Below, in pieces: positions 14,286 to 34,485 of a stretch of 64,000 bases of DNA. The notes below the pieces were generated by a model. That model made no database searches. It was not told the DNA's origin and worked only from the letters and a program-made list of their open reading frames with translations. The stretch is from NCBI RefSeq assembly GCF_021134715.1, contig NC_060026.1:10841001-10905000 (forward strand), written 5' to 3'. A program made the translations under genes and the position numbers. The stretch is from Daphnia pulex (Eukaryota > Arthropoda > Branchiopoda > Diplostraca > Daphniidae). Numbering within the stretch: the first letter of the stretch is position 1; each line of letters begins with the position of its first letter.

Positions 14286-14960
14286 ATTTTATATTCCTAT
14301 ACTCAACTACGTCGAGACAGCAGCACAAAACTGAAAAATGTCTTTCATGAAGGCTGTTTTGCTGCGCTTTGTATTAAGGTGTAATTTAATTTCTACTGTT
14401 AATTATAGTCAACTTTTTAACTTTATCATTCTATTTAGATTCCAAATGGAAATGTTACATCAAGAAGTGGAGGAGAAGATGGAAATTATGCTGACACATA
14501 TTGTCCACCATCGTGGCTGCTGCCCATATTACCACTCGTGAAGCTCAGTCAAGTGACCACTTTCTCTTCGTTGGTAAGCTTATTGTTGACATTGCAAAAT
14601 CCGTATTGTTTTAGACGTTCATGGATTGGTTCAGCGTTATTGAAAAAAAAAGCGAATCAAAATGAAAACTAGAATTGGACCCTTTTCTCCTATTTCAGGA
14701 TCGTTGGTGTCTTGTTTAACTCTAGTACCGTTCGAGAAACGTCTACGCTGAAGGAATATTTATCATCGCTGGACAAACTAGCGCCCCGGTTGCGGTCGAC
14801 CAACATTCCTTTTCCCGAAGTATATACAACGATTTGGTCAAATCTTGTTGTCAAATCTCACACGGTTTTGATGTATCTCTCACAGATTCATTGGATGTTT
14901 AAGAAGATTTGGAATACGACTTTTGCAGTGCTCGTCGGATAAAAAATTCAAACAACAAAT
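14286..14960 (+). pseudogene. partial duplicate of the downstream helical-repeat gene
   Basis: 14,286-14,590 matches 16,359-16,660 and 14,620-14,912 matches 17,610-17,886, including introns. The roughly 1 kb that separates these blocks in the downstream gene is missing. Because introns are kept it arose by DNA duplication, not retroposition. A TGC codon for Cys has become TGA near 14,330 and other changes break the frame. Confidence 0.7.
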
Positions 14961-15159
14961 CGCTAGGTCTGCTTATCGAGAAGACTTGTAAGAGGCCATT
15001 ATCTGATTGAAATTCGCCCATTCATTTGGTAGGGCCACAGTACATTGCAAATAATTATGAAAATTCACGTTAAGTATAACAAAAATTCCCATCGTTGTAG
15101 GACAACAAGATAAGGAACGACAAATTAAAGTACGGACGATGCCATCACTTTACTGGCAG

Positions 15160-17886
15160 CTTGCTACATGCATCTTAACCTGTCAGAGCATTGGCTTCGA
15201 ATTATCGAAATTTTGGATTTTGGAGGTAAATTGAAGCGTCAGAAATTAATACATTTTATTCACACCAATTATCACAAATGTATTCTAGATGACACTGTTG
15301 AGAACTTGGAGCTAAGGTTGCAAACACTACTAGTTAGTGGAAAGGACATCCATTCGATTAAGCAGTATCTTTCGAAATACTTGGCTCTCCGATATAGAGA
15401 AGATGGCATTGGTCAAATATCAGTGAAATTGGCTGCCGATCAAGTATATTGCTTGTAATACTTACTTGAAATTTATTCACCCATTTGTTCTTCTCTTAGT
15501 TGTTTTGTTTGATCCAAAAGCAAAAAGGTATCACTTTCCTCATGCAGCTACTCCGCGAAATCCCCTGGAAAGATGATGAGATAATGACCGATAGAACTAA
15601 AAGTGATTGGAAAACTGAATGGTCCCATGTCGAAAGCATCAAGTGGATTTGTGCTAAATACGCCACACGTTATTTCATGGCTGAAGATCATACTGACGAC
15701 CTGTTTAAACTTCTTTGTGATATTCAGCACTGGAACGACGAAAATGGTAAATTAGTGTTTCTGAAAGTTATTCTTTTCTTAATTCTTTCTCTCTTAATTT
15801 GCACAGTGAACAGTGAGTTGAGTTACGATTTATTGTATCTGTCTGACGGTGTGGCTTTAAGATTAATTAACGACGAAGGTAATGTGGAGGCTTCCTTGCG
15901 TTGGTATGAAATAATCGTTCGATTTGCCAATCGCCATGGTACGTATTACTTGGAATCTTCTTTTTTTTTTGGGTTTTGCATTAATTGATTTATTAATTTC
16001 AGGAATCGATTCTTCGGTTATATGGAACGCGATGACTTGTTTGTTACAACTTCCTCATGATACAGGATATCAAAGGGCTGAAAAGCTGTCAACTCTGATT
16101 CCGGAATATAACTCATGGGCTGATCAGGATCCCCTTTGTATTCGATTGCAAATGGCACTAAGAGCTGAAAACTACGATAAAGCGCTACAGATCACTGCGG
16201 ATTTAGGTACTTTTTTGAACGGTTTTCTTAATTCTTTATTACATTACTCCACAGTTACTTAATTTTAAAACAGATAATCTGGGAGAAAATAATGATTGGG
16301 ATAAAATCCAACGAGCTATAAGTCGTAGCGCGTCAATTGCTCGGGACAACGCGTTTTATATTCCCATGCTCAACTACCTCGAGACAGCAGCACAAAACTG
16401 CAAAATTTCGTTTATGAAGGTCATATTGCTACGCTTTGTATTAAGGTGTAATTGGATTTCTACTGTTATTTATAGTCAACTTTTTAACTTTATCATTCTA
16501 TTTAGATTCCAAATGGAAATGTTAAATAAAGAAGTGGAGGAGAAGAAGGAAATTATGTTGACGAACATATTGTCCACCATCGCTGCTGTCTATATTACCA
16601 CGCGTGAAGCTCAGTCAAGTGATTCCCTTTCTCGTTGGTAAGCTTATTGTTGACATTGCGAAATCCGTATTGTTTTAGACGTGTTGAACGCTTTATTGAT
16701 TTAATCACTTATTTTATTTTTCTTCTTTCAACAAGAAATAAGGATTTGGTTCGCCCGAACATCCTGGAATTTGGGGCGTATCGGAAACAAACAATCTGCT
16801 TATTTTCGTCATCATCTGTTTAAGCTGTCGGGCCAGCTTTTTGCTTTGGTTTGTTTCAAAAGATTATCACCAAACAAATCCAAGACAATTTTTCATTTTA
16901 AATCTCGACAGGAAACATGTTGGATGAAAGAGATGAAAACTGCGATGGTCAGAGCGATTGAGGCCACCTTTGACTTTGGTCCCAATCACAAACGAATCTC
17001 CTACGTGCGTATTCTAGAGTCCGCCCTTGATGCCGTGATGTCGTGAATGAATTTTACCAACATGCTAAGGGTTCGGAGCACGTCCAGCTAATCCAATTGA
17101 TGGAAATTCACGCACTGGTGATGATTCAATTCTATTTCGATTTTTTTTTTCTCTTTCCTATTTCAACACATTTGTGTTTGTTTCTTTTGTCTAGTGTGGG
17201 TTGGCAAAAGACTGGCAAAAAGTTGAAAAACTGTGTCACAGCTATTTTGACGATAAAGATGTCAATCCCAAACATGACGCTGACTTCTTTCTTAGTCTGG
17301 CCTCGATCATAATCAGTACCAAAGATGCCAAGATCTGTGAAGTCGTCACGAGTGAGTGCACAGATGACATATTCGAGAGGGAAAAATTGTCCGCACAGCA
17401 GCAAACGCGTTTGACGAGTTAAGCTGCTACGAGCCTGGAAAAGGCGATCGATCTGTCAACGTCATCAGGAACTCTCCCCTCCTCGAAGATAATTCCCCTT
17501 TGTCAATGGTATGCATACCATATTTTTAATTTTTTAATTTCATTTTGTCACGTTGGAATTTTGCATCCGATTCAAGTCGCCGATTCAAGTCGCGTTTCTA
17601 ATTATTCATCTCAGCGTTATTGAAAAAAAAAGCAATTCAAAATGAAAACTAGAATTGGACCCTTTTCTCCTATTTCAGGATCGTTGGTGTCTTGTTCAAC
17701 TCTATTACCGTTCGAGAAACGTCTACGCTGAAGGAATATTTATCATCGCTGGACAAACTAGCGCCCCGGTTGCGGTCGACCGACAGTCCTTTCCCCGAAG
17801 TATATACAACGATTTGGTCAAATCTTGTTGTCAAATCTCACACGGTTTTGATGTATCTATCTCTCACAGATTCATTGGATGTTTAA
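15160..17886 (+). CDS. multi-exon alpha-helical repeat protein, tentatively SPO22/ZIP4/TEX11-like
   Basis: Coding blocks follow one another on plus with short GT-AG introns: about 15,160-15,445, 15,500-15,745, 15,808-15,938, 16,003-16,205, 16,274-16,420, 16,505-16,640, 16,900-17,120, 17,195-17,420 and 17,680-17,886. The translation is soluble and helical, with TPR-like text such as SLRWYEIIVRFA and LQMALRAENYDKALQITADL. This resembles the repeat region of SPO22/ZIP4/TEX11 meiotic crossover proteins, but I am not sure of the family. Start and end are not fixed. In-frame stops after 17,040 and 17,422 suggest either missed introns or decay. Its neighbour at 14.3 kb is a broken partial copy. Confidence 0.38.
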
Positions 17887-18395
17887 GAAGATTATATTTT
17901 ATTTTTTATATCTTATTAGATTTTATATCTTATTTTTCTTCTTTCTTTCTTTCTTTTCTTTTTTTCTCCCCTCATGCAACATAAACTGATTTGATTCTTT
18001 TGCCATCCAATGTTGACTCATTCCTATGCGGAACTATTTCAAAATGATCTCGAGTTCACGGCGGGAGAAGATCTTCTAGAGACTCCGGTAGACATTTTTC
18101 ACGAGAACTCTATGCCCTATCATCGTGCAACTCGGATTCGAGCAGTCGAGATAACATTAATGTACATTTTCCCTTCTATTTACAGTAACACAGAATCTGT
18201 GGGGAGAGAAATCTATAGTTGGAACTAATCAGCATGGGTATAGTCCTGAACGCGCCAGATTCAAATCCGTCCGTACAATTCTTATAATAGCGCAGAGTTC
18301 TGGGAACATACAAGATTTGCAATTGATTAGGAAAAGAAAGTATTGATATTTAAAAAAAAATAAAAGGCTGGCAGGTGTCTGCCGTGTTCAATACC
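17887..18395. other. insertion flank, no gene
   Basis: A T-rich run near 17,895-17,970, then a frame at 18,010-18,228 with no recognised domain. A tRNA T-arm-like string (GATTCAAATCC) lies at about 18,260. The last four bases before the LTR, TACC at 18,392-18,395, form the target duplication. Confidence 0.5.
18392..18395. other. target-site duplication TACC (left copy)
   Basis: TACC directly before the 5' LTR is matched by TACC at 34,482-34,485 directly after the 3' LTR. Four bases is usual for gypsy-type integrases. Confidence 0.85.
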
Positions 18396-18848
18396 TGTAA
18401 TGCCCCGGCGGCAGCCCCGCCCCTTTCAAGATGGCCGCCGCCAAGGACGTCACGCTATGACGTCACACCGACGTCACGCCACGACGTCATGACCGGCATC
18501 ACCCCGACGTCACGCTAAGACGTCACGACCGGCACCGACCGATGCTGACTCAGGAGTTGCTGAGTCCGCGTTACCTGCAGGTGCGAGTCAGCACTCGTCC
18601 CGGACGGACTGGCCCTCACTCACGGCCAGACTGGGTAGTAACGCCGGCTGGTCCAACCGTGAAGACAGCCGGGACCGGCCAGCAGACATGCTGATGCGGC
18701 AATCCCGCCATACATAAACCCCCGCTTCCTCTCTCTCTCTCTCTCTGCTGCACTCCCTTCCTGTCGGTCGGACACTCAATACAACTGCTTCTCATCCGCC
18801 TACCTGTCTTCGTGTACTCTCTGTAAGCACCCCGGACCGGGCCTTACA
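18396..18848 (+). repeat. 5' LTR
   Basis: 453 bp, TGTAATGCC...GCCTTACA. A TATA-like TACATAAA lies at 18,711-18,718, followed by a CT dinucleotide run at 18,729-18,747. Upstream U3 is GC-rich with clustered factor sites (see the separate entry). R and U5 limits cannot be set from sequence alone. Confidence 0.95.
18431..18595 (+). promoter_or_regulatory. U3 enhancer: YY1-like site, six CREB/ATF cores, Maf/AP-1-like half sites
   Basis: AAGATGGCCGCC near 18,429 is YY1-like. ACGTCA cores start at 18,447, 18,460, 18,471, 18,484, 18,507 and 18,520, several extended to TGACGTCA or GACGTCAC. Next come TGCTGACTCA (18,543), TGCTGAGTC (18,558) and GAGTCAGCA (18,585), which match Maf/CNC-bZIP (MARE/ARE) and AP-1 half sites. 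The motifs are seen directly; response to cAMP, stress or oxidative signals is inferred. The first core is broken in the 3' LTR (ACGTCG at 34,080). Confidence 0.7.
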
Positions 18849-18886: not shown

Positions 18887-18896
18887 CAAGGTAAGA
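18887..18896 (+). promoter_or_regulatory. leader splice donor before gag
   Basis: CAAG|GTAAGA puts a near-consensus 5' splice site at 18,891, only ten bases before the gag ATG (18,901). Unspliced RNA would serve gag-pol; spliced RNA can join the leader to acceptors just ahead of the downstream ORFs, for example the AG at 24,505-24,506. Confidence 0.7.
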
Positions 18897-18900
18897 TCGG

Positions 18901-21045
18901 ATGAATCCGAATTTAGATCACTCCAAGTATTATGTTAGTACACTAGACGACAACGGTGAACGACCAGTTATTGGCCCTACTTTAAAATACTTGACCGCTC
19001 CCGAGATAGCTTATTGTAAAAATAAAATAGCACTTAAATTACTCCAGTTAAATTTTGCAAGAGATAAAATAATTACATCAATACAAGACGCTAGGGCAAC
19101 GACAGATAACGCAAGACGATGCTTGCAAACGAAAGAAGATAAATTAACTAGGGAAATAAGAACATTAGAAGTTAAATACGACGAGCTTTCGATCCCAAAT
19201 TTTCCGATTTGTAGATTTTCCCGTAAGGCTCGAATAGCCCCAGTAGCCTTACCAGAAGGTGTTACAGTCTATTTAACAAAAATCCAGAAAGAAAAATCAC
19301 CTTGTACACCAGTAGAGCCCGATTTACTTGCAGAAGCAACAGGCGGAATACCACCGATTCCAAGAGTAACTGAAGAAATTAAGTGGAGGCCAACAGTAGA
19401 CAGAGAGACCGGAACTAGCATTTTTGATAACGTAGATGAATTTAATGAACTACCAGTAGATGAGATAATTAAACGCTTGCAAGAAGAACAGATAAGCGGA
19501 TCGCCAGACTTAAGAAATAGAGCTAAATACCTAGATCGATTGTGGAGAGCAGATTTATCGCCAGAATTTGATTGGAATAATTATTCCGCAGAATTAAACG
19601 AAGCAACAGGCTTTAGAGGGTGGGAGAGTGACGACGATACCCTTAGTAATTACAATCTCGATTTAATATATCCATATCAGGACGATAGCGACGACGAACT
19701 TAGTACTTTTGATCTTGATTTATTATACCCAGACGAAGATATGGCTTTAACTCAAGCAGCAATCGACACGCTGCAGACAGCAGGACAAAATAATACGGCA
19801 GCATTAGTAACAGGCATGCGTACCTTAGCAGCACAGAGAAAACTAGAAAATATTCCAATTTTTTCAGGCGAAAGTAATTGTCCGTTAGTCATAGAAGAAT
19901 GGTTTAAAATAGCGGAAAGAACAGCTCGGTTAGCAGGATGGAACGACGAACAAAAGATAGCATTTTTTCAAGAAAAATTGAGTAAGTCAGCAGCCAATTT
20001 TAATGACTCTTTGACAGCGCAACAAAGAGACGTGTACGTAGACTGGAAAGCGTTACTTATAGCAGGGTTACATGATAATACGGCAAAAGCTATTAAAAAG
20101 GGAGAATTAAAAGATTTAAAACAAGAGCCAGGCGAAAGAGTCAGAGATTTTCAAACACGTATAGACGACATGTACCGGATAGCTTATGGAGCAGGGCCAG
20201 CGAACAGCAACGACCCCAACGTAGTATTAGTCCGAGACGATATGAAGAAGGAAATTCTTTTGGCAGGCCTACGCAGGGAAATTGCTACACTAGTTTGGAA
20301 TAGAGTAGAAGCCGATGCAACGTACGCTAATACAATAAACACAGCTATAGAATGCGAAAAAGTAACGGAAGTAAAAAAGATAGCACAGAGTAAAGATATA
20401 AATTCTGCAGTTTCAGCTATTTCCCAAGAAAACGAGAAAAACGCGGCAAAGATAAAAGAATTGGAAGGTCTGATTCACAAACTGTCGACGAAACCGGTCT
20501 CACCTCCGACGGCATCAACACCAGTCGATTTGGGAGACCCAGCAGTAATCGCAGCCTTCAACACATACAACAACGCGCAGACAAATTATCCGAAAACAGT
20601 TCGTTTCCCGGAAAATAACAGAAGCCGCAGCGTAAGTCCATTCACGTATAACAGACCCAATAGGCCAGAAGAAGGAGCAAGAGCTCAGACGCCGGTTAGA
20701 AATAATAATAGCAGTCAGGATACTCGTATTACTTGTTATAACTGCGGGAAGAAAGGGCACATTAGTAGAGAATGTTGGTCCGGTCGAGGACAACAACAAC
20801 AACAGCTAGGCAGACGTCGCGACGATCAAAGATTCTCGCGAGACGAACGGCGAAACTCAGAGCGATCGGGACAAAATTGGAGGCCGAATGGAGGGCCACA
20901 AAACAATTATCGAGCTCGCAGCAACGAAAGATACGATCGCAACACCAGTACATATGGCAGACCTTTCAATCAGGAAAGAAATCAAATCGGCAATCGTCAC
21001 AGCCAGGATTATCGCAATGCGCCACCGAACGAACCGAGACAGTAA
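18901..21045 (+). CDS. gag: Gag polyprotein with CCHC zinc knuckle
   Basis: 714 residues, the structural capsid precursor of the element. The N-terminal third is helical and charged with an acidic patch around residues 240-275. A capsid-like helical region follows at about 290-490 (FSGESNCPLVIEEWF, then LIAGLHDN and LLAGLR). The C terminus is basic and Gln/Asn/Arg-rich with one zinc knuckle C-x2-C-x4-H-x4-C at residues 612-625, expected to bind genomic RNA. The ATG lies ten bases after the splice donor. The 3' end overlaps the pol frame by about 275 bases, which fits -1 frameshifting. No stops interrupt the frame. Confidence 0.93.
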   Translation: MNPNLDHSKYYVSTLDDNGERPVIGPTLKYLTAPEIAYCKNKIALKLLQLNFARDKIITSIQDARATTDNARRCLQTKEDKLTREIRTLEVKYDELSIPNFPICRFSRKARIAPVALPEGVTVYLTKIQKEKSPCTPVEPDLLAEATGGIPPIPRVTEEIKWRPTVDRETGTSIFDNVDEFNELPVDEIIKRLQEEQISGSPDLRNRAKYLDRLWRADLSPEFDWNNYSAELNEATGFRGWESDDDTLSNYNLDLIYPYQDDSDDELSTFDLDLLYPDEDMALTQAAIDTLQTAGQNNTAALVTGMRTLAAQRKLENIPIFSGESNCPLVIEEWFKIAERTARLAGWNDEQKIAFFQEKLSKSAANFNDSLTAQQRDVYVDWKALLIAGLHDNTAKAIKKGELKDLKQEPGERVRDFQTRIDDMYRIAYGAGPANSNDPNVVLVRDDMKKEILLAGLRREIATLVWNRVEADATYANTINTAIECEKVTEVKKIAQSKDINSAVSAISQENEKNAAKIKELEGLIHKLSTKPVSPPTASTPVDLGDPAVIAAFNTYNNAQTNYPKTVRFPENNRSRSVSPFTYNRPNRPEEGARAQTPVRNNNSSQDTRITCYNCGKKGHISRECWSGRGQQQQQLGRRRDDQRFSRDERRNSERSGQNWRPNGGPQNNYRARSNERYDRNTSTYGRPFNQERNQIGNRHSQDYRNAPPNEPRQ

Positions 21046-24000
21046 ATACTACGCAAAAGTCGAATAATGTAAATACGCAATATAAACTTTTTCATGTACC
21101 AGTAAAGATAGATAATATTTTCACATATGCTTTAATAGACACAGGAGCTTCAGTTAGTGCAGTTTCAGAATATTTCTTTAATAGATTGAGAAATGAAGTA
21201 AAACAAAATAAAATAATAAATAATGATAATCTTCGCAGCATATGCGGCGACAGTATGGATATATTAGGAGTATACAATTTAAATATTAGCTTAGATGATA
21301 ACATTGAAATGGTAGAGCAGAAATTTTTTGTCGTACCCCAATTGTCAGAAACGTGTATATTAGGCATCGATTTTATTACTGAAAACGCGCTTGTCCTTGA
21401 CGGAGAAACCCGTCGGGTAACTTATAAAATGAAAGGGAAAACTTTTTCGCTTATAGCAGAGACGGGAAATTCAAGTTATGCCTATTCGCCCATTATTCAA
21501 CTATTGAACACCACTGTGGCAACAACTAGTGAAAAAGGAAACAATATTGCATTAAAAGTTGAAAGCCCCGTCTCTAAGGTAATAATCGACGACGTAAATT
21601 CAGAAATGCATAGAAATAAGATAGACAAACTGTTAGAATTAAACAAAGACGTAATAGCAGACAAATTGTGTGAATTAGGCCAAGCTAAAGGTATTACACA
21701 TCACATTGAGACGACAGGAAAAGTTATATATATGCGACCTAGACGACAAGCCAGGGCAAACCTAGCCATAATAGAAAAAGAAGTGAACGAGATGTTAAAA
21801 TATAATATAATTAGGCCGAGCTCAAGTCCATATAGTTCACCAGTCCATCTGACCGACAAGAAAGATGGCACCAAACGCTTTTGTATTGACTTTCGTAATT
21901 TGAATACGGAAACGATAAAAGATAAATACCCTATACCAATCGTCGACGAAACAAAAGATTATTTGTTAGGCGCTCGTTATTTCTCAACACTCGACCTGAT
22001 CAGCGGGTATTGGCAGATAGAAATTGAGGAAGCCGACAAACACAAAACAGCTTTTACAACTAGCCAGGGTCATTATGAATTTAATCGTATGCCATTCGGA
22101 TTGACGAATGCACCAGCAACTTTTCAGCGTTTAATGAATAATTTATTACAACCAGTTATTCATAAATTTGCACTAGTTTACTTGGACGACGTAATTATTT
22201 ATTCCAAAACTATCGACGAACACATCAAACACATTCAATGCGTACTAGATCTGCTAAGGGAGGGAGGATTGAAAATTAAATTATCGAAATGTTTATTCTT
22301 ACAAAAAGCAGTAAAATATTTGGGACATATTATATCAGAAGATGGCTTGAGGCCAGATCCGAAGTTGACAGAAGCAATAAGAAATTACCCGACACCGCAG
22401 AATAAGAATCATGTGAAAAGTTTTTTAGGATTATCAGGATATTATAGAAAATTCATTTGGGATTATGCGAACAAAGCAAGAGCGCTGACAATTTTAACGA
22501 GACAGAAAGAAGAATTTCGATGGGGCCCCGAGGAAGAAAGTACGTTTCAATTTTTAAAAACTTGTTTGTTAGAAAATCCGATTTTACGCTTCCCAGATGT
22601 CGACCTCGAGTTCATTGTCCAAACAGACGCATCGGGATTCGCAGTAGGATCAGTTCTAGCGCAACGGAAAATTGTAAATGGCGAAAAAGTAGAATATGCC
22701 GTAGCATACGCATCGCAGCAATTAGACGAGACACAAGAAAAGTGGCACACGACAGATAAAGAAGCATATGCAATATATCACGCGTTAAAGACATTTTATC
22801 ATTATTTGTACGGTACGAAATTCACAGTAGAAACTGATCACGAAGCATTAAAAAATTTCCCTAAAATAACGGAGAATATGTCGAAAAAAGTAATTAGATG
22901 GGCTTTGTTTGCCAATGAGTTCGATTTTCAAACAGTTTTTAGGCCTGGCGTAGCTAACCAAAATGCCGACGGGCTGAGTAGAATACCAGAACAAAAGGAG
23001 GCAATAACAACGTCTGGCCAGACACAAAGTATAAAAGCCCTAACAACAGAAATGTTTTTACAAGAACAGGAAAAAGATGAATTTTGTAAGAAAGCAAAGA
23101 AAAAGTATATAAAGGAACAGCAACGACGAACCAGATTTATGGAAGAATATTTAGCAGCTGAAGCCGACGGAAAAGAAAACGATAAGGCACTTAGAGAAAA
23201 CGAAAATAAAGAATACGAGGACGACCTCGACGAAGAGGAACAATTAAAAGAATTTAATAATGGCTTAATCGGCACGGCCGACGGAAAAATATTGGTACCA
23301 GAATCATTAAGAGAGAAAATATTAATAAGATTTCATGATAGCCCATTCGCGGGGCACCTAGGCGTAAAAAAGACAACGGCGAGAATTCAAAGACGTTTTA
23401 AATGGCCGTTTATGGTAAAAGAAATTAGAGATTATATACGTAAATGTGAATTATGCGCGAAGAGAAAAGGCGGTGGAGACAACAAGTCTCCTTTGAACCC
23501 AATCGCTCCCCCAGATCACGTATGGCAATTTATGGCTATGGATATTGTAGGCCCACTGACCCCATCAGGACCCGAAAATCATACGTACATTTTAGTTATG
23601 GGCGAATATTTAACTAGATATATAACAGTTGCATCAATGCCAGATAGTACAGCGGAATCGATAGCTAAAGCCTTTTATAAAAATATTATAACACGCCACG
23701 GTGTGCCAGAAATGGTACTGACCGATCAAGGTCAAAATTTCTTATCAAAAGTAATGGAATGTTTGTATAAACAATGTGGTGTCGAAGCCATTCGAACATC
23801 GGCCTACCGCCCCCAGTGCGACGGTATGGTCGAGCGTGCAAATCGAACGCTGGCCGATATAATTTCTTGTTATGTTAAAGATAACCCCCATACATGGACA
23901 GACTTTTTAGATGTAGCAGCTTTTGTTTTTAATACCGCAGTCCATTCGAGCACGGGTTATAGTCCTTTTTATTTAATGTACGGAAGAGAGGCGCGAGAGC

Positions 24001-24488
24001 CGGACGATTTAATGCCGCCCGCGCGAAACCGGAATTTAACAGATGTTAACATGATTTTTTCACAGCAATGGTATGATGCGATTAAAATAGCCAAAGATAG
24101 ATTAATTGAAGCGAAAGAGAAGCAAAAATATTATTACGATAGAACAGCAAAAAGAGTTGATTTTAAAATAGGCGACAGAATTTTATTTAAGCAGTTGGCC
24201 ATCGTGCCCGGAAAATTCAACATGCGCTGGGAAGGACCATATACAGTGGTGGAAAAGAAAAGCAACGTAAGCTATAAAATCGGATCAGATGACGGGAAGA
24301 AACGAATGGTAGTACATGCCGATCGCATGAAAAAATTCCAAGGCCGAGAGAGCCCTCAGGCTACTAACATTGTAGCACCCGGCAGAGTGACAAAGTCCAA
24401 AGCGCGAGTTGCCCCACAGTATAACGTAGTACAACATAGATATAATTTAAGAGAAAAAATAAAAGCACCACAAAGATATAGTAATTAA
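20769..24488 (+). CDS. pol: Pol polyprotein: protease, reverse transcriptase, RNase H, integrase
   Basis: Open in the -1 frame relative to gag from 20,769 (two stops lie just before), so it is probably made by -1 frameshifting within 20,769-21,045. Numbering from the ATG at 20,772: protease motif DTGA at about 123-126 (ALIDTGASVS). The reverse transcriptase has YLDD at about 469-472 and the RNase H starts QTDASG near 617 with TDHEAL later. The integrase has an HHCC zinc-binding region at about 855-895, D at about 923 (AMDIVGP), D at about 983 (LTDQGQNF) and E at about 1019 (GMVERANRT). A GPY-type module (RWEGPYTV) lies near 1150 and there is no chromodomain. All catalytic residues expected are present, so the enzyme set looks intact. 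Order and motifs are those of Ty3/gypsy elements. Confidence 0.95.
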   Translation, partial: RMLVRSRTTTTTARQTSRRSKILARRTAKLRAIGTKLEAEWRATKQLSSSQQRKIRSQHQYIWQTFQSGKKSNRQSSQPGLSQCATERTETVNTTQKSNNVNTQYKLFHVPVKIDNIFTYALIDTGASVSAVSEYFFNRLRNEVKQNKIINNDNLRSICGDSMDILGVYNLNISLDDNIEMVEQKFFVVPQLSETCILGIDFITENALVLDGETRRVTYKMKGKTFSLIAETGNSSYAYSPIIQLLNTTVATTSEKGNNIALKVESPVSKVIIDDVNSEMHRNKIDKLLELNKDVIADKLCELGQAKGITHHIETTGKVIYMRPRRQARANLAIIEKEVNEMLKYNIIRPSSSPYSSPVHLTDKKDGTKRFCIDFRNLNTETIKDKYPIPIVDETKDYLLGARYFSTLDLISGYWQIEIEEADKHKTAFTTSQGHYEFNRMPFGLTNAPATFQRLMNNLLQPVIHKFALVYLDDVIIYSKTIDEHIKHIQCVLDLLREGGLKIKLSKCLFLQKAVKYLGHIISEDGLRPDPKLTEAIRNYPTPQNKNHVKSFLGLSGYYRKFIWDYANKARALTILTRQKEEFRWGPEEESTFQFLKTCLLENPILRFPDVDLEFIVQTDASGFAVGSVLAQRKIVNGEKVEYAVAYASQQLDETQEKWHTTDKEAYAIYHALKTFYHYLYGTKFTVETDHEALKNFPKITENMSKKVIRWALFANEFDFQTVFRPGVANQNADGLSRIPEQKEAITTSGQTQSIKALTTEMFLQEQEKDEFCKKAKKKYIKEQQRRTRFMEEYLAAEADGKENDKALRENENKEYEDDLDEEEQLKEFNNGLIGTADGKILVPESLREKILIRFHDSPFAGHLGVKKTTARIQRRFKWPFMVKEIRDYIRKCELCAKRKGGGDNKSPLNPIAPPDHVWQFMAMDIVGPLTPSGPENHTYILVMGEYLTRYITVASMPDSTAESIAKAFYKNIITRHGVPEMVLTDQGQNFLSKVMECLYKQCGVEAIRTSAYRPQCDGMVERANRTLADIISCYVKDNPHTWTDFLDVAAFVFNTAVHSSTGYSPFYLMYGREAREPDDLMPPARNRNLTDVNMIFSQQWYDAIKIAKDRLIEAKEKQKYYYDRTAKRVDFKIGDRILFKQLAIVPGKFNMRWEGPYTVVEKKSNVSYKIGSDDGKKRMVVHADRMKKFQGRESPQATNIVAPGRVTKSKARVAPQYNVVQHRYNLREKIKAPQRYSN

Positions 24489-24506: not shown

Positions 24507-26579
24507 ATGGACGGTAAACTCGCGCTGGGACTGCTGTCAACACTTGCTTTTGCCACGGCAACAGGAGTAAATATTACTATTTGCGACTGCAAAAATCCCA
24601 AGGCAATCGGCTTGCTGGACGCGGAGCTCCCATCGTTTTGTCAGGAAAAAGATACCATCCCACCAATTTTCAAAAAGTACCAATTTTTTATTAAGGAAGA
24701 ACCTCATGCCCATTGGGAGGGATATGTATGTAGATCATGGGCGAAAACTAAAAAGATAGTAGGATATTTCTTTGGATCTTACGATACAACATTTACAACT
24801 TTCTCTCGGCAAGTGGCCGAAAAAGAATGTTGGGAAATGGCCCAATATAATCGCTGCGTAAATAATATAATGGAAGGATCAGCGGATTCTTTCTCTTTCA
24901 CTGCGTCACCGGAAGGCGACGGTGTGTGGATGCAAACAAAAGAATATAGCGTAATTAATTGCATGCTTCAAAAGATAAGTATTCGAAAAGACTGCTTATA
25001 TTGCCCGATCACTTCCCCTTTTGGTCTATTAACTAACAGCTCTGAAGTGTCTTTTGTTCGCCATCATGACTCTGTCATAGTATGGGATGCAACAAAGGCT
25101 AATATTTCAGGACAATGTAATTTAAGAGAATTAAAAAGCGGATCAGGATTTGTACACAAAGTAGACAGTAATTCTGTAAAATTGATAGACGACAACGCTC
25201 AATTGAAATATTTTTATTACGAAAACGTAGAAGCAATTTGCGGCAAAGCGCTCCACAAATTAAAAAATTTAGACTCTGCATACCTACGAATTATCGCGCA
25301 GGATTGGACCCGTATTTCAAATGCGGAATCAAAACTTTGCCTAAACGACGAATTAGAAGAAGTAATATGCACCAGCCAGAAAACACAGGAATTTGTTTTA
25401 GACAAAAATGAACTCGCACTAAATCGTACACACCTAGCGAAAGTAAAAAAGAATTGTTTGACGCCAATGTGGCTGCGCGAATTATATAATAACATGGAAA
25501 AAATGCAGGGAAAAGAGAGGGAAAACGTACGATATTTTTACGTCATATCAACGGATTGCGATAGAAAGCAAAATTTTCGCTGGAATAGCGAAACGTTTGA
25601 AATAATGGCCTACATGCCCAATAGGCGAGAAGGTTGCTTAACAGCAATCAAAGGTAGCCAACCTACCCTTAAACATTGTACACAAGAAAAAAATCAAAAA
25701 TGGATATTTGGCCCACCCGAGATTCCTATCAAACGGAAGACGGAAGATAGCCAGCCCCTTTTGCTTCAACACCACCAGTATATGGAACGTCAAGCGACAG
25801 TTCATGAAAATGTGTTGGAAAAAGAAATACAGAAAATATATTGTGGAAACCTTCAAGTGCGTAAATATACATTAATGCTACTAGCGGAACAAAACGGCCT
25901 GTTAGCCGCCCGCGCAAACAAACTCCCTATGTGTCAGCGACTTAAAACTTATGGTGAATATTTTATGGTGCAACAATGTACGGCAATAAACATTTCAGTT
26001 GGAATGAAAGAAACGAGATGCGGCCCTGAGCCTATTTACAAAGACTTTACAGTAGGCAAAGACGGATTTTCGTTACACCCCTTCGAAGAGTGTTTTTGGC
26101 CTAATAAAGTTGTCAATTTAAATGGAAAACCCCATATATGGAAAGACGGGGAGTGGACCCCAATGCAGCCATCGTCTCATCTTTCTACCCTCCGCCTTAC
26201 AGCAAAATTCGAAGAATTGGAGGATAACGAAGCTCAATATGTAATCAATTCCCACGACATTTCTTACAGACCAGAGTATGAAGCAATAAATTCAGTGAAC
26301 GAAATAGTCGGTCGGATCCACGAATCAAATTCAAAGAGCCTGTCAGCAATAATAGTGAACGAGCATGAAGAATCACGTCACTGGGACCTCCGGAGATGGA
26401 CATCGAAACTCCAAGCATCATTAATCTCAGTCATTGCCGCGTCTCTATTCTCCATAATTGTACTGGGTATAATTTGGAAATATAAGTCACGTATAATTGG
26501 ACTGAGAGACATACTGGAGCAGCTCGCCGTTCACCTGCAAGAAAGACGGCGCCAGAGAGCCAATATGCTGACGGAGTAA
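24507..26579 (+). CDS. env: envelope-like transmembrane glycoprotein
   Basis: 690 residues starting right after a splice acceptor (TTTTAG|ATGG at 24,507), 18 bases past the pol stop. An N-terminal hydrophobic signal-like stretch (about residues 5-20) precedes a large Cys-rich ectodomain with several N-x-S/T sites. A membrane segment follows at about 636-656 (SVIAASLFSIIVLGIIW), then a basic tail of about 30 residues. This layout is that of a type I viral fusion glycoprotein. Cysteine pattern and lack of an obvious furin site plus fusion peptide argue against the baculovirus F-type envelope of insect errantiviruses. A mononegavirus-like (chuvirus/rhabdovirus-type) glycoprotein is possible but unproven. 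Intact frame. It could allow the element to leave the cell, but this is inference. Confidence 0.75.
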   Translation: MDGKLALGLLSTLAFATATGVNITICDCKNPKAIGLLDAELPSFCQEKDTIPPIFKKYQFFIKEEPHAHWEGYVCRSWAKTKKIVGYFFGSYDTTFTTFSRQVAEKECWEMAQYNRCVNNIMEGSADSFSFTASPEGDGVWMQTKEYSVINCMLQKISIRKDCLYCPITSPFGLLTNSSEVSFVRHHDSVIVWDATKANISGQCNLRELKSGSGFVHKVDSNSVKLIDDNAQLKYFYYENVEAICGKALHKLKNLDSAYLRIIAQDWTRISNAESKLCLNDELEEVICTSQKTQEFVLDKNELALNRTHLAKVKKNCLTPMWLRELYNNMEKMQGKERENVRYFYVISTDCDRKQNFRWNSETFEIMAYMPNRREGCLTAIKGSQPTLKHCTQEKNQKWIFGPPEIPIKRKTEDSQPLLLQHHQYMERQATVHENVLEKEIQKIYCGNLQVRKYTLMLLAEQNGLLAARANKLPMCQRLKTYGEYFMVQQCTAINISVGMKETRCGPEPIYKDFTVGKDGFSLHPFEECFWPNKVVNLNGKPHIWKDGEWTPMQPSSHLSTLRLTAKFEELEDNEAQYVINSHDISYRPEYEAINSVNEIVGRIHESNSKSLSAIIVNEHEESRHWDLRRWTSKLQASLISVIAASLFSIIVLGIIWKYKSRIIGLRDILEQLAVHLQERRRQRANMLTE

Positions 26580-26887
26580 AAAGAACAAAAATCGGGTGTC
26601 AGTTGGCGTCAATACAGGGTAATTAACGCAGCTGTCAATCGTACATCAAGCAATTCGAAGACGAAACTTTTTGTTTCTCCCACGCAACCACAACCCCCTT
26701 TTGTGTCAGTACAGTTTTGACTTCAGCGTGTACCAGTGCTCCAATATTTTCGTGTCGCGAACCCCAATCGTTAATCAAACAATTAAAGACAAAGAGTGTT
26801 TGTTCTCTTCCACGCTCACACTCTCCTTCAACCCCAGTTCAACTTTAGACTCCAGCTAATAACATTGTGTAGCCGGTAAGCTAGTAA
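26580..26887 (+). promoter_or_regulatory. leader before the ankyrin ORF, with acceptor and donor candidates
   Basis: Pyrimidine-rich sequence (26,660-26,850) runs into possible acceptors (CTTTAG at about 26,847 and CTCCAG near 26,855). A good donor GTAAGC then starts at 26,876, twelve bases before the ORF start at 26,888. The arrangement copies the leader-donor-ATG order of gag, so this donor could produce the mRNA of the distal ORF. Function is inferred. Confidence 0.45.
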
Positions 26888-28219
26888 ATGAGTGCTACGA
26901 AAAGACTACTTAGTAAAAGTGTAGGCTCCGAGCCTTTAAACGGTGACAGTGTCTTGCATAAACATGCAAGAGCAAATAGTGCAACGGGGATCGGCGAGAA
27001 CGCAGACAAGTGCGACGTCAACATCAAAAACAATAGACGGGAGACGCCGTTGATCACAGCCGCACTACACTCCGCCTGCCGTGTCGTCGCAAAACTGGTC
27101 CAGCTGGGCGCCGAGGTAAACGAACGGGATATCCAAGGTAATACAGCCCTACACTATGCTATTTTGAACGCGTCAGAGAAGACGGTAGTAATCCTCTCCA
27201 TGTCGGGAGCGGACGTTACTATCCAGAACTCTGACGGTCAAACGGCAATTCATTTGTTAGCGTTTTCAAGCGACAGTAATCTAGCTAAGCACGTTTGCCA
27301 CACAAGAAATTCCATTGCAATGGACATGAAGGACCATGACGGACTTACCCCGTTTATGGCCGCCGTCATGAGAGGCAATTTAAAAATAATACAATATTTT
27401 CTTTCTCTGGGCCAGGGCCCGGAAGAGCGTACAAATGAGAACAAGAACCCTTTACATCTAGCTGTAGAACTAAAAAACATAAACGTAATTAAACTCTTGG
27501 CCAAATTACCCCACATCAATCTCGTAGACGACAGTGGCCACAGCGCGTTAGCACTAGCCATCAGCCAGGGAAACGAAATCGCAGTAGACATCCTCCTGCT
27601 ACAAGAGGCAGACGTAAAACAGATAGATAATTCGGGTAATTCAATGTTACACATTGCATGTGCTGGGCCGTCGATCCACATTGCACGGCATATGTTGGAG
27701 CATTTCACCGATTTAGACGCGAAAAACCTGGCGGGGGAAACCCCATTGCACCTTGCATGCGCGTCAGGTAATACAGCAATAGCTCTTGATATTTGTACTA
27801 GGGGAGCCAGGGTAACGGCCCAAGATAACAAACAGCGGACGCCGTTGATGACTGCCATCGTGTCAGGGAATCAAGGGTCCGCGTTAACAATTTTAAAATG
27901 GGAATTTGTAGTAAACACGGACTTGCTAGAGTTGACAGACGACAACAATATGAATGCGTTACAGTATTGCATACTGTTTAACGACCAAAGTACGGCAGCG
28001 AGAATAAGAACAATAGAGTTAGCTTTATTGAGCAACCGTCAAGTTACCCCGCCGACTAGGACAATTTATTTCAGGCCGGGAGAAGAAGAAATTGCGATAG
28101 AATATGAAACGGTTGATCCATTAGAAACACCCGGCCTAACCCTTTATCTTAACGCAGGTGACACCTCGCCACCAAGTTACATAACCACTGACCCCCTAGA
28201 GACCAGTGAAGACGAATAG
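26888..28219 (+). CDS. ankyrin-repeat accessory protein
   Basis: 443 residues. After about 45 non-repeat residues come roughly nine ankyrin repeats at about 49-81, 82-114, 115-149, 150-184, 185-214, 215-247, 248-280, 281-313 and 314-350. Hallmarks include TPLITAA, NTALHYA, TPLHLA and TPLMTAI. The tail holds a near-duplicate VDPLETPG / TDPLETSE and a PPSY motif at residues 428-431 that matches the PPxY late-domain consensus for NEDD4-type ligases. There are no membrane or signal segments, so it is likely cytosolic or nuclear. Ankyrin proteins in other invertebrate viruses can mimic I-kappa-B and block NF-kB signalling; that role here is a hypothesis. The frame is intact inside a young element, arguing for function. 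It has no counterpart among standard gypsy genes. Confidence 0.88.
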   Translation: MSATKRLLSKSVGSEPLNGDSVLHKHARANSATGIGENADKCDVNIKNNRRETPLITAALHSACRVVAKLVQLGAEVNERDIQGNTALHYAILNASEKTVVILSMSGADVTIQNSDGQTAIHLLAFSSDSNLAKHVCHTRNSIAMDMKDHDGLTPFMAAVMRGNLKIIQYFLSLGQGPEERTNENKNPLHLAVELKNINVIKLLAKLPHINLVDDSGHSALALAISQGNEIAVDILLLQEADVKQIDNSGNSMLHIACAGPSIHIARHMLEHFTDLDAKNLAGETPLHLACASGNTAIALDICTRGARVTAQDNKQRTPLMTAIVSGNQGSALTILKWEFVVNTDLLELTDDNNMNALQYCILFNDQSTAARIRTIELALLSNRQVTPPTRTIYFRPGEEEIAIEYETVDPLETPGLTLYLNAGDTSPPSYITTDPLETSEDE

Positions 28220-31200
28220 GCACTAGCTACAAACTTTTACCCTAACCCATATTCATTTATTCCCGTTTTACAGGGTGTACAAGTCACCCAGATTTAGATA
28301 TTATCAATAAATTCTGGTAGTACGCCAGAGACTCAATAGCCCTCCCTGAGGAATTTAATTGTAAAGGCCAGCGTTACATGAAACAAGACACGAACTGTGT
28401 AAGAGGCGAGCGACAGTACTCGACGCGTTGGTCCGCGTAAGCAAGACCAGCCGAGTCACCTCACCCCGCTGTATTTTTTTTTCTTTTCTTTCTCTCGATT
28501 TTTTTTTGTCTCATAACGAAAACATAAAACGTACGCTGGATTAGAAATGTCGCAACAAAAAAAAAAAATATCGATATTTGAAGGCGAGTGGAGGGAATAT
28601 AAATTGGTGGACGCTAGTCGTTATAGACTAATCAGGGTTGTTGTTTTTTTTTATCTTAATGGAGGTAGCAGAATAATTTTTAAGTTTTCAGTTCAACCAG
28701 AGGCAAAATAAACAAAAGCATTTTTGTTTTTCTTTAGTAGGCGTTAGGCCTACAAGCCCCAGTTTATTCCCCCCAGTTAATGCCATTATGGTTCCTAGGC
28801 GTCCACTCGCCAACTATCGGTCGTTCATTTCTTCTTGCACTTTGCTGAGGCGAAGTAACTAGTTAGGCCTATCGGGGTAAAAAGTTTATCCCTTCTCAGT
28901 TAAGATTACTTACGGGCATGACAAATGCCGGTGTCGGCTGGACACCGTACTCCCACGCGCCCAACTATGAGGTATGAAAGATTTTCTGCAATAGGGAATC
29001 AGTGACGCGATTTACGCGCTAGTTTACATGGCCTTTTTATCTCAGCCACTCGATCGACCAGCTAAAAGTCAGCTGGCCGTTGAAAGCGGCACCAGCAGTC
29101 AAAGACCCCAGACAATTTTTTTTCTCCCCCGCACGGTCCAGAAAAATATGCATCGCCGTGTTACCATTAACGTCCTACGGACAAAACAGTTAGCGACAGG
29201 ACCCGGGTTTTGTTTCAGCCAATTCACCCGAATAATTAAGGGACCTCCCCGTTACAGTATAAAAAAAGAAAAGGTTAATTACAAATAAAAGAGTGCCAAA
29301 TAGTCCGCCTAAAGCGCACACTGGGTCGGTAAAGACACAGTAGCTGCATTTTGAGAAAAGTTCCGTTTTTTTTAATTTTATTTATTTTTATTTTTATTCC
29401 ACATAACCAAGCGCGGATAGTATTGACTTGCCCCCAAGTTTTTTTTTTTTTTTCCTCAATCAATTCAACATAATTAGTTGGAAAGCGCCAATAAAAGAAT
29501 CTAAGAAGAAGAAAAGCCGTCGGCAAATGAGCGTCGACGGCTAGGCCGGCTACCATGCGGGCCAATGCAAGCCCCTACCAGGGCCCAGACGCGGAGTCGA
29601 TGGGTGTCGAGTTTCGTTTGGAACTTGTACTCCCAAAAAAAAAAAAAAAGCTAATTTTGAACAAATCTCCCAAGCAAACGGGACGGAAAAAGAAATTTCA
29701 GGGTTGAAGAATATATATATATTTTTTTCTTAGCCTAAATTGGGGAAAAGTAAAAGGGAAACGAAATTATTTTTTTTTAAATTCTTTGATTCTTCCCAAG
29801 ATTTTGTATCTTGATATGCAGGCTTTAGTTTCCGCCATCCGTTCGGTCGGACGACCCACCGTATTTCCCCCACCAAGGCCACAGAGCTAAAGGGAAGACG
29901 AGACAGCCTACGGCTGCAAAGTGTCAGAAAACCCATATTTCCGTCTACTACTTGCACCAAGAAGCAACCAGTATGAACAAAGAAAATGGGGACAGAAAGA
30001 AAAAAAAAATGCTGTGCGATAAAGGGATGAATGGGCCGGACTAATCGTACCCTTGCAATGGTTTTTTAACGAAGGGGCGGTAACACGCTCTATGAGAGAA
30101 TTGTGATGAAAAAGGAAAAAGGGACGAAAAATATCCGTGTGGTGACGGAAAGAAGATCACGATTTGTGATTTGAATCAACAGGTTAAAAATAGGGGATAC
30201 GGAACAAGCTAGGGAGCGAAAGCAATAGGTTGCAGTTTTGTTTTTCCGCGTTGCCCTACAGTAATGCCGCATGATTGGCGGACAATTTTTGCGAATAAAT
30301 GGCTCCGGAAAAGTTTGGATTTTAAAATGTTTCGGTCGCGCGCTAAATTTCTTTAGCCTAGCTCATAGGGAGAGTTAAAGGATTTCAGATACGAAATGCG
30401 AGGGATAAATCAAATTCACGCACACGTGAAGAAAAAAAAAAGAAATTTTTGTAATGTAGAAAACCCATAACGAATAAGTTTTCCGCCAGGCTTACCGCTC
30501 CGTTTACGCAGGCATTTTTATGCAACACATTTCAAAGAAACGAAATAAAAAGCCGATTTTCCTTTAAACCGGTTGTTATAAAGAGCCGTGGTACAGCAGA
30601 AGGTCCCAAACCCCTTCATTTGCCGAGACAAAGAATAAGGGAAATATAGGGAAAATAGTAACAAACAACCTCAAATAGTTTGCTAATTGAGAGTGACGTC
30701 CTACAACCCGCTCCGAAATGTCAAGATTGTAAAAACGATCTAACGAGCCCAAAACATTTTTTTCCCCGCGCCGGAAAAGAAGAAAAGGGAAGAAGGACAT
30801 TCCGCCAGAAAGAAAGGAACAGGCAACACACACCCCGCCGGCTTTGATGGAGAATTGTGTGGCAGATAATTGTAATTTTTCTTTTTTTGGTTTGGATGTT
30901 AATACTTTCATTTGGGCTGTACTGGTATATCTTTTAATTTTTTATTTTTTAACATACCCGTTTCCCTAACGAAAAAAAAAGAAGAAGGGGAAGTTGTCAG
31001 CCGACCGTCTGACGCGCGCCCACTATGACAGCGAATTAGCCGAAGCACCCACCGCCAAAGCTAGGGCGCTGTCATAAGACTCACGGCAGAGCGTGTCGTG
31101 ACATTAGTATTGAAAAGAAAAAAAAAAAAGGGAAAAAATATTAAATTCAGCCTGTAGAAAAGGAGGGAAAAGAAATATCCAACGGGCTGCCATGAGGGAA

Positions 31201-32533
31201 GGGTGAGATGTTGACGTTCAATAATGGACGTGCTACATGAACGAACGCTATTGATTGGCGGGCACGGTGTCCGAATGGCGACATTGGTAGATCTTCAACA
31301 TGCAAAGATCAATGTGAAACGTCAAACCAAATTTGGGTCCCCAAAAGAAGAAGTCAAATCACGAACGACGGTTTTTTCCAAAAGAAAATAACGGAAAACA
31401 CTATACAGCACTGTCTGTGGGGCGAGATTTCACCTCGCAGGGAAGGGACAATAATTTAAGAAATGAAAAATGGGAAGGGACCACTCACCCCCCCCCTCTC
31501 CCCAATAATGATCGACCAGATTGATTCTGCTGATGCCAGAGCCAGTTCTGAAATCGGGCTCTTATTATAATACCCGTTATTTTTTTTACTTTTCTTATCC
31601 CTCGCGTTATCCGCGATCTGTTAAATCCCGCCCCCCCCCCCCTCTCATTACACTACTCTTCTTCGTCATGGGCAAAACAAATTCCATGTCGATGTCATCG
31701 TCGTCGATTGCCACCAGCTTCGTGGTAAATACACCTGAAAACATTTTTTTTGTTCCCCGGGAATCAATCTGGAATCAAAGCTTCCCTTTGAGACCCCCTC
31801 GTAAACCCCAATTTTTTTTTCTTTGGTGGCGACAAACTTTTCGACCGCAAGGGTATGGTCAATGTCCTCAACAAAATCCCAACTTTTTAGCGATCTCAAT
31901 AATTCAGTCGTAACGGCATTTACGTTTTTTTTCCCTTCTCCCAATGTCGTAATACAGATTCCCCCGAGATTTGCTTGACTCCGTACCAGTTTTCTCCTTT
32001 GACGATTTTTGCTACGCCATTCCTTACTACAAGTAAACGTCCCAGATCACTATTTTTTTTCTTCTTCTCCTTCCCCCGACCCGATTCTCGTTTTCCCCCG
32101 TATCTAAAATCCCGAAACATGATCCTATATGTTTTTTTTTTCTCCCGCTCTCCCCCTCCCTACTCTCACACCAAATACTCCAACAGACGTTTTTTTTTCT
32201 CACCACGGGATCAAGTTTTTTTTTTCCCCTCTCGTCCCCGAACAGAGGACAATTTATTATCCTCACGCCATACCAGCCGCAGTTTCTGTAACTCCACTCA
32301 ACAGGGAAATTGCGAAACGCAACGGGAGGATCAAATTAAGGAAAGGGGGGGAGGTGGCCACGACAATACAGATGCCTAGTCGTACACAAACTTCGCGTCT
32401 ACTATACAAGCACCACCAAGCATCTCAAATTCAAAGGAAACTGATCCACTTCATCGAAAAGCAAAATCTGTCGAAGCCAAAAGTCTCGACTCGAACGACA
32501 GTCAGTCGAGCGTAAACCGCCAAACCATACAAG
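28220..32533 (+). other. 4.3 kb internal stretch without a convincing ORF
   Basis: Open frames on either strand here are short and lack domains. A and T homopolymers of 8-15 bases recur throughout. The part 30,000-31,200 is A/purine-rich on plus and 31,550-32,270 turns pyrimidine-rich. The stretch may hold splice sites, packaging or structured RNA, or may be cargo DNA. No LTR-like ends were noticed inside it, so a nested LTR element is not supported. Confidence 0.6.
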
Positions 32534-33385
32534 ATGGACACGAGAACAGCGATCACCATCGTCATCAACAACACGCGCGTAGTCGCACATTTTATCACCA
32601 ACCTCGCTATCACTCTCATCCAAAAGTGCGCGGCAGAAGTGTTGGGAATGCCGATCCGGCCAGTGTACGGGCCGGATACCACATTCACAGACCCAGTTAC
32701 GGCAAAAGTGTTCAACATCCAAGGAGAGACGACGCTTACCTTGACATACGCGGGCCAACAAGAAAAAGTCACCGCCTATGTGGTAAGCGACATATCCAAA
32801 TCAATTCTGTTGGGAATGGATTCCCTATTAGCCATGCGAGGGAGGCTGTTAAACAGCGTGGGCGACGAACAGATCAACCCTATTTTCCCAATCCCGGGAG
32901 AAGACCCACTATCACCAACGCGACCAATCTTTGCAACGGGGCTAACAGAATCCTTCGCATCACTCGCCTGGCAAAGGCAATCCTCGTATGCCATAGAACC
33001 TTTCCATCGACAATATCATCAAGATTTAGTGACAAACACCAGCTTCAGAGTGGTGGGACAGGTTCAACTGCCAGTCGGTCGACTGCCAGTTGGCACCCAA
33101 AGCGACTCCTTCAGTGTGTTAATCACGGACACAAACACCCCATTTACCCTTGGATTGAACTACTTAAGGCAATTCAACTACCGTATCGAATTCCCCGGGT
33201 TCAAAATTACCTGGCCACGGACTCTCGCGGTCCGCCCAGTACGGCGCCGCACAGTTGCAATCAACGGGCCAACATGCCCAAGATGCCGGCAAGCGGGCCA
33301 CCTGCGCTCACAGTGCACGGGCCGACCACGCCCGGCAGAAAGGAGCCAGGGAGCCAGGGCTATTGACCCACGGCCACAGCAGTAA
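32534..33385 (+). CDS. catalytically dead retropepsin-like protein with zinc knuckle
   Basis: 283 residues; the ATG follows an AG directly (ACAAG|ATGG), mirroring the env start. Residues about 7-97 follow the retropepsin pattern (INNTRVVAHF, LAITLI, then SILLGMDSL) but the D-T/S-G catalytic triplet is replaced by a T-N-L stretch. A second such segment at about 150-235 ends TLGLNYLRQFNYRIEF, again without a DTG. A basic linker and a CCHC knuckle follow at 248-261 (C-x2-C-x4-H-x4-C), then a short Arg/Gln tail. The layout suggests a gag/pro-derived RNA-binding accessory factor, possibly acting on Gag or protease. That role is inference. The frame is intact. Calling it a protease fold rests on motif spacing only. 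Confidence 0.65.
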   Translation: MDTRTAITIVINNTRVVAHFITNLAITLIQKCAAEVLGMPIRPVYGPDTTFTDPVTAKVFNIQGETTLTLTYAGQQEKVTAYVVSDISKSILLGMDSLLAMRGRLLNSVGDEQINPIFPIPGEDPLSPTRPIFATGLTESFASLAWQRQSSYAIEPFHRQYHQDLVTNTSFRVVGQVQLPVGRLPVGTQSDSFSVLITDTNTPFTLGLNYLRQFNYRIEFPGFKITWPRTLAVRPVRRRTVAINGPTCPRCRQAGHLRSQCTGRPRPAERSQGARAIDPRPQQ

Positions 33386-34028: not shown

Positions 34029-34481
34029 TGTAATGCCCCGGCGGCAGCCCCGCCCCTTTCAAGATGGCCGCCGCCAAGGACGTCGCGCTATGACGTCACA
34101 CCGACGTCACGCCACGACGTCATGACCGGCATCACCCCGACGTCACGCTAAGACGTCACGACCGGCACCGACCGATGCTGACTCAGGAGTTGCTGAGTCC
34201 GCGTTACCTGCAGGTGCGAGTCAGCACTCGTCCCGGACGGACTGGCCCTCACTCACGGCCAGACTGGGTAGTAACGCCGGCTGGTCCAACCGTGAAGACA
34301 GCCGGGACCGGCCAGCAGACATGCTGATGCGGCAATCCCGCCATACATAAACCCCCGCTTCCTCTCTCTCTCTCTCTCTGCTGTACTCCCTTCCTGTCGG
34401 TCGGACACTCAATACAACTGCTTCTCATCCGCCTACCTGTCTTCGTGTACTCTCTGTAAGCACCCCGGACCGGGCCTTACA
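34029..34481 (+). repeat. 3' LTR
   Basis: 453 bp, two substitutions relative to the 5' LTR: G at 34,085 (removes one of six ACGTCA cores) and T at 34,384. It is followed by the right TACC target copy at 34,482-34,485. Confidence 0.95.
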
Positions 34482-34485
34482 TACC

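Follow-up and report, generated by a model that had tools for sequence, protein, structure and literature searches.

Retrotransposons of the Ty3/gypsy type that bear an env gene, the errantiviruses in the broad metazoan sense, have a common plan. Long terminal repeats (LTRs) enclose a gag gene with a CCHC motif, a pol gene in the order protease, reverse transcriptase (RT), RNase H and integrase, and an env gene 3′ of pol. Metaviruses are usually drawn with gag, pol and env only. A provirus of this type is found in a stretch of Daphnia pulex DNA of 64,000 nucleotides (contig NC_060026.1, positions 10,841,001 to 10,905,000, forward strand; this whole stretch is termed the window). It shares the common plan but differs in its length of ∼16.1 kb, in an ankyrin-repeat open reading frame (ORF) and a further conserved ORF, both 3′ of env, and in the 5.8 kb that separate the ankyrin gene from the 3′ LTR.

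Accessory genes in metaviruses have a precedent. The MDG1 group of Drosophila LTR retrotransposons carries sORF1 and sORF2, for which low ratios of replacement to synonymous change (dN/dS) are reported (PMC11952523). These ORFs differ from the ankyrin ORF in that they are small, lie 5′ of gag, belong to env-less elements and do not encode ankyrin repeats.

Ankyrin proteins occur in other viruses. The vankyrins of polydnaviruses are likewise reported as degron-less ankyrin proteins of an invertebrate virus. The Daphnia protein differs in having 11 helix pairs, an acidic DPL-bearing tail and a reverse-transcribing element as carrier, and among the matches listed there is no kinship beyond the ankyrin repeats. 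With poxvirus and giant-virus ankyrin proteins only the fold is shared; no PRANC or F-box domain is detected in the window protein by Pfam. In the titles and abstract openings covered, no account of env-bearing LTR elements with an ankyrin gene was found; the metazoan survey of Chary and Hayashi (2025), which lies outside this comparison, may mention an extra ORF. The main texts of PMC12992720, PMC2996953 (on D. pulex LTR elements, 2010) and PMC12440569 make no use of the word ankyrin.

The ankyrin gene and its element

The gene is a single open frame of 443 amino acids that matches Pfam Ank_2 at 1.9e-59. An AlphaFold2 model, built on an alignment of 11 sequences, has a mean predicted local distance difference test (pLDDT) score of 83 and displays 11 ankyrin-type helix pairs over residues 22–383. 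A previous reading of the DNA (the sequence-only reading) had described an intact ORF with about nine repeats; the intact frame stands, and nine is slightly low. The remaining tail, residues 387–443, is modeled with low confidence and is acidic and disordered.

The gene was also placed by that reading downstream of env in a young gypsy-type element, and the gag-pol-env order, the paired LTRs and the 4-bp target site duplication (TSD) TACC on both flanks agree with this. The LTRs, of 453 nt each, are identical to each other at 452 of 454 nt in a refined repeat comparison, and the gag, pol and env frames are all open. Paired LTRs with a short TSD, gag with CCHC and the pol domain order are features of Metaviridae. 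From the LTR positions (Table 1) the element extends 6 kb past the ankyrin ORF.

The nearest named proteins, among the best 120 matches listed, are from D. pulex and D. pulicaria, and no named cellular donor stands clear of the generic ankyrin background in these 120. Solved sequences that match the ORF (best 60 of 311) include NompC, ankyrins, latrotoxins, DARPins, TRPA1 and other ankyrin proteins. Fold matches in BFVD (best 50, E 2e-17 to 1e-11) include klosneuvirus, mimivirus and avipox ankyrin proteins. Scans of IMG/VR gave no relative; one contig (L083) has an ankyrin match.

Recurrence beside env and purifying selection

The genome compared comprises 133 Mb in 13 contigs, the window included. 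Searched with the window ankyrin protein, the genome yields copies and fragments of the element at ∼44–90% identity. The env protein gives 70 matches, merged into 48 loci; six without the env C-terminus were dropped, and 42 retain it. At 26 of the 42, an ankyrin match of the element lineages follows env in the same orientation and no more than 3 kb away, where chance predicts ∼0.0006 per locus. Of these 26 matches, 19 lie 200–400 nt past the env match, and some of the 26 are relics with stops. By lineage, the ankyrin-bearing loci number eight in A (that of the window), three in B, 10 in C and five in D. As other copies carry the gene, its origin as a one-off insertion, which the sequence-only reading had named as one outcome that would speak against it, is rejected.

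Open frames are not confined to the window. In lineage B, env and ankyrin are both open at two loci, at one of which the ankyrin tail lies in a different frame, and lineage C has open ankyrin copies of 484 amino acids on contigs C9, C5 and C2. The ankyrins of A and B are mutual nearest kin: a B query matches four A copies at 1.9e-28 to 3.9e-23, with the next match outside the element lineages at 3.1e-16, and an A query places three B loci above, and one below, the first ankyrins taken as cellular. A shared origin of the A and B ankyrins is thus supported by sequence kinship. The env tree, which carries a long-branch warning and was built after removal of the C8 row and without the database env proteins P0124, P0127, P0128 and P0136, pairs A with B, and likewise C with D; A and B share a group with lineage E and with several database env proteins, with no firm order inside that group.

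Substitutions were counted by the Nei-Gojobori method in 10 pairs of ankyrin genes, some of the compared copies being decayed. In the five measurable pairs dN/dS ranges from 0.08 to 0.23, far below the value near 1 that the sequence-only reading had named as its second refuting outcome. The window gene gives 0.11 against C9 (synonymous divergence, dS, 1.4) and 0.12 against a C10 fragment of 131 codons; the lineage B pair gives 0.19 (0.10 for env of the same pair), and two lineage D pairs give 0.08 and 0.23. In all five, replacement changes are significantly depleted (Fisher p 1e-3 to 1e-38). The ankyrin ORF is therefore under purifying selection where this is measurable and, since it also recurs beside env, looks like a genuine accessory gene.

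A mosaic history

Comparison with a related element on contig C8 separates the element into two parts. Between the window and C8 elements dS is 0.35 in gag, 0.31 in pol and 0.21 in env (first 291 amino acids); env is 93–97% identical, the portion past the first 291 amino acids 93–96%. In contrast, the ankyrin proteins of the same two elements are 60% identical in amino acids, with 78% of synonymous sites changed (pS 0.78, saturated), and the second 3′ ORF, with a dS of 1.4, parallels the ankyrin gene. The C8 copy is decaying, since it has one stop inside gag and one inside pol.

Judged by these divergences, the ankyrin gene and the 3′ end have a history apart from that of gag-pol-env. Recombination between env and the ankyrin gene is the simplest reading, and the ankyrin gene and 3′ end seem to move as a module. 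Because the gene appears to accompany the 3′ end rather than env, a close partnership with Env is probably less likely than a host-directed role, as far as one pair of elements can indicate.

Possible roles of the ankyrin protein

The reading favored here, with a probability of roughly 0.5, is that an env-bearing Ty3/gypsy-type endogenous retrovirus of Daphnia carries the ORF as an accessory gene, which encodes a host-directed adaptor. The protein would be made from a spliced subgenomic RNA that joins a donor in the leader (18890/18891) to an acceptor at 26838. The donor proposed by the sequence-only reading at 18,890 is present (AAG|GTAAGA) and occurs also in the leader of the C8 copy; the candidate acceptor is predicted close to the suggested 26,850. 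As a soluble intracellular adaptor, the protein might bind a host protein through its 11-repeat solenoid and dock a second protein through the acidic tail with its DPL motif. It would then act on the host cell, in defense or trafficking, and not as a partner of Env or Gag. Antagonism of an intracellular defense pathway is a first guess, with NF-kB as one candidate among several.

The tail motifs differ in their conservation. The window tail has DPL at 410 and 435 and PPSY at 428. The acidic DPL motif is present in all 11 readable family tails, and in the lineage A columns that were scored the P and L never vary and the D hardly does. By eye the window tail has a composite look: DPL occurs twice, and one segment resembles the C8-type tail. 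In the lineage D proteins an acidic DPLA stretch is found on the N-terminal side.

Other roles can be set against the host-directed adaptor. The sequence-only reading noted that PPSY would fit a PPxY motif used in budding, and in the window Gag, Pol, Env, ankyrin and 3′ ORF proteins there is no other match to PPxY, P[TS]AP or YPxL. This would suit an egress or trafficking adaptor whose repeats bind Env, Gag or membrane and whose tail recruits NEDD4-type ligases or ESCRT, giving a late domain that Gag lacks. However, PPxY occurs in only four of the 11 readable tails and is not conserved in the family, and the history of the ankyrin gene is separate from that of env; such a role is rather unlikely. 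An antagonist of RNA silencing, by PIWI-interacting RNA (piRNA) or small interfering RNA (siRNA), or of another intracellular restriction factor would fit the separate and faster-looking history of the ankyrin gene and 3′ end, as expected of a gene in conflict with the host, and somatic piRNAs are reported to target env-bearing gypsy elements in insects (PMC13172572). Among the matches listed, however, nothing in sequence or fold points to a silencing factor, and we consider this antagonist unlikely.

A decoy resembling I-kappa-B, as the sequence-only reading had proposed, would bind host Rel dimers and block Toll or Relish signaling. Polydnavirus ankyrin proteins are reported to act in this manner (PMC3359993, PMC3757122). 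The Daphnia genome has Rel-homology matches above cut-off on contigs C6 and C3, and, as in vankyrins, the DSGxxS phosphodegron that I-kappa-B has at its N-terminus is absent from the window protein, in which only DSGHS within a repeat was found. I-kappa-B has 6–7 ankyrin repeats. The 11 helix pairs here make a longer protein, no conserved binding face is seen, and I-kappa-B is absent from the best 60 of the 311 matching solved sequences, which are other ankyrin proteins, and from the 50 VIA-align rows listed. Within these lists mimicry as a specific claim is neither indicated nor excluded, and overall it appears quite improbable. There is also the view that the ankyrin ORFs are passengers without function, captured repeatedly from the host by chance. 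The nearness of the lineage D gene to ordinary ankyrins would allow more than one capture, but the same place in 26 of 42 loci and purifying selection in the five measurable pairs stand against such passengers. As neutral sequence they are rejected by dN/dS well below 1 in those pairs, and the view as a whole has very little left in its favor.

Several results weigh against the host-directed accessory gene itself. In five of the 10 ankyrin pairs synonymous sites are saturated, and no ratio was obtained. The likely binding face, at the positions used in designed ankyrins, shows no stronger conservation than the convex face or the loops (p 0.89), so that no single conserved target is evident. 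At 16 of the 42 env loci the 3 kb downstream gave no ankyrin match. Eight of these (L060, L067–L073) were also inspected in the ∼2–3 kb of downstream DNA for frames of at least 110 amino acids, and the other eight rest on protein queries alone, among the matches listed; at C12:2578468 a lineage D ankyrin match 3.8 kb downstream of env was counted as none. Lineage E (two loci) has a different ORF of ∼320 amino acids after env, broken in one of the two. The lineage C ankyrin is closest to that of the window, yet at 1.3e-9 only, and the lineage D ankyrin is closest to ordinary ankyrins and not to element ankyrins; a single origin across the four lineages is therefore not established. The strict place beside env could, moreover, mean an Env-linked role.

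Tentatively, and with less assurance than the adaptor reading, these elements may represent a crustacean clade of endogenous retroviruses whose envelopes are class III-like and whose layout, with a modular accessory region, is like that of complex retroviruses. A slot 3′ of env would hold a long-lived ankyrin gene (in one lineage another ORF) followed by the second 3′ ORF, and the lineages would exchange these as a cassette in the course of an arms race against intracellular defense of the host. With an ankyrin gene that is conserved, under selection and apparently swappable, invertebrate endogenous retroviruses would have arrived at accessory regions independently, like complex vertebrate retroviruses. 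As Daphnia is a laboratory animal and one genome has several open copies, expression, partners and effects on defense are directly testable.

Other features of the provirus and its relatives

Table 1. Features of the Daphnia pulex provirus (positions in the window)
Feature	Position	Strand	Remarks
TSD TACC, left copy	18392..18395	+	flank of 5′ LTR
5′ LTR	18396..18848	+	453 nt, TG...CA; tandem GACGTCAC-type repeats at 18446–18534
Splice donor GTAAGA (predicted)	18891..18896	+	AAG|GTAAGA, exon end 18890; 5′ of gag ATG
gag ORF	18901..21045	+	714 aa, CCHC zinc knuckle
pol ORF	20772..24488	+	1238 aa; protease, RT, RNase H, integrase
env ORF	24507..26579	+	690 aa; viral glycoprotein-like by fold match
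Possible splice acceptor (predicted)	26838	+	first exon base after pyrimidine-rich CAG; 50 nt 5′ of ankyrin start
Ankyrin ORF	26888..28219	+	443 aa; directly 3′ of env
Long 3′ region	28220..32515	+	no frame >160 aa
Second conserved 3′ ORF	32516..33385	+	289 aa, stop-to-stop frame
3′ LTR	34029..34481	+	pairs with 5′ LTR
TSD TACC, right copy	34482..34485	+	flank of 3′ LTR

The env product has a hydrophobic N-terminus (signal) and a C-terminal hydrophobic segment (transmembrane), both read by eye. Pfam gives no significant family for it, a sequence search finds no solved relative, and its model is poor (mean pLDDT 58). Compared with viral models, this model best matches glycoproteins of rhabdo-, nyami- and chu-related viruses and herpes gB (E from 3e-16, probability 1.00, template modeling scores of only 0.1–0.35), which we take to be class III fusion proteins. 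Proteins of the baculovirus F type are not among these glycoprotein matches, within the limits of a low-confidence model and low scores. The window Env thus appears more like class III glycoproteins than like the Env of Drosophila gypsy, and the earlier label of gypsy or errantivirus is not supported in the Drosophila sense. PSAP, a late-domain motif of the TSG101 type, is present in the env tails of lineage C and D loci L057, L058, L062, L063 and L064 and absent from that of L059.

The long 3′ region contains pieces 66–88% identical to the C8 element (88% at 29919–30322), and in places it is more conserved than the ankyrin gene. At gathering scores it has no Rfam family; a regulatory function, as RNA or as DNA, is possible. 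A nested second element is rejected as the main explanation of the 3′ 5.8 kb, since related elements share this 3′ region; small inserts are possible.

The second 3′ ORF has a CCHC-like knuckle near its end and 47 genome matches, and the C8 element holds an open frame of 291 amino acids for it. It is retropepsin-like only below the cut-off (Pfam 0.0049), and a profile comparison with the protease of the element gives a probability of 1.7; its origin as a duplicated protease is unsupported.

Tandem GACGTCAC-type repeats are present in both LTRs, those of the 3′ LTR at 34079–34167, and they resemble CRE/ATF sites. Outside the element is a zone of diverged direct repeats (14287–17893), in which 14631–14881 pairs with 17611–17861 (97%) and 14287–14495 with 16354–16562 (91%).

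Elsewhere in the genome, the lineage E ORF at L060:1424-2386 (G000 C5:3049423-3050382) encodes a basic protein of 320 amino acids in the place of the ankyrin gene and has 10 genome matches. At C8:5747849-5748988 (L035) an ankyrin frame of 384 amino acids, in which the N-terminal part of the family is absent in frame, is open beside decayed env pieces and may represent either recent decay or a domesticated copy. Contig C8 also has, at ∼5.00–5.42 Mb, family relics nearly all on the + strand, in about seven clusters by our own grouping, the exception being one env piece (short inverted LTR matches were ignored). This strand-biased field of relics could possibly be like a piRNA cluster.
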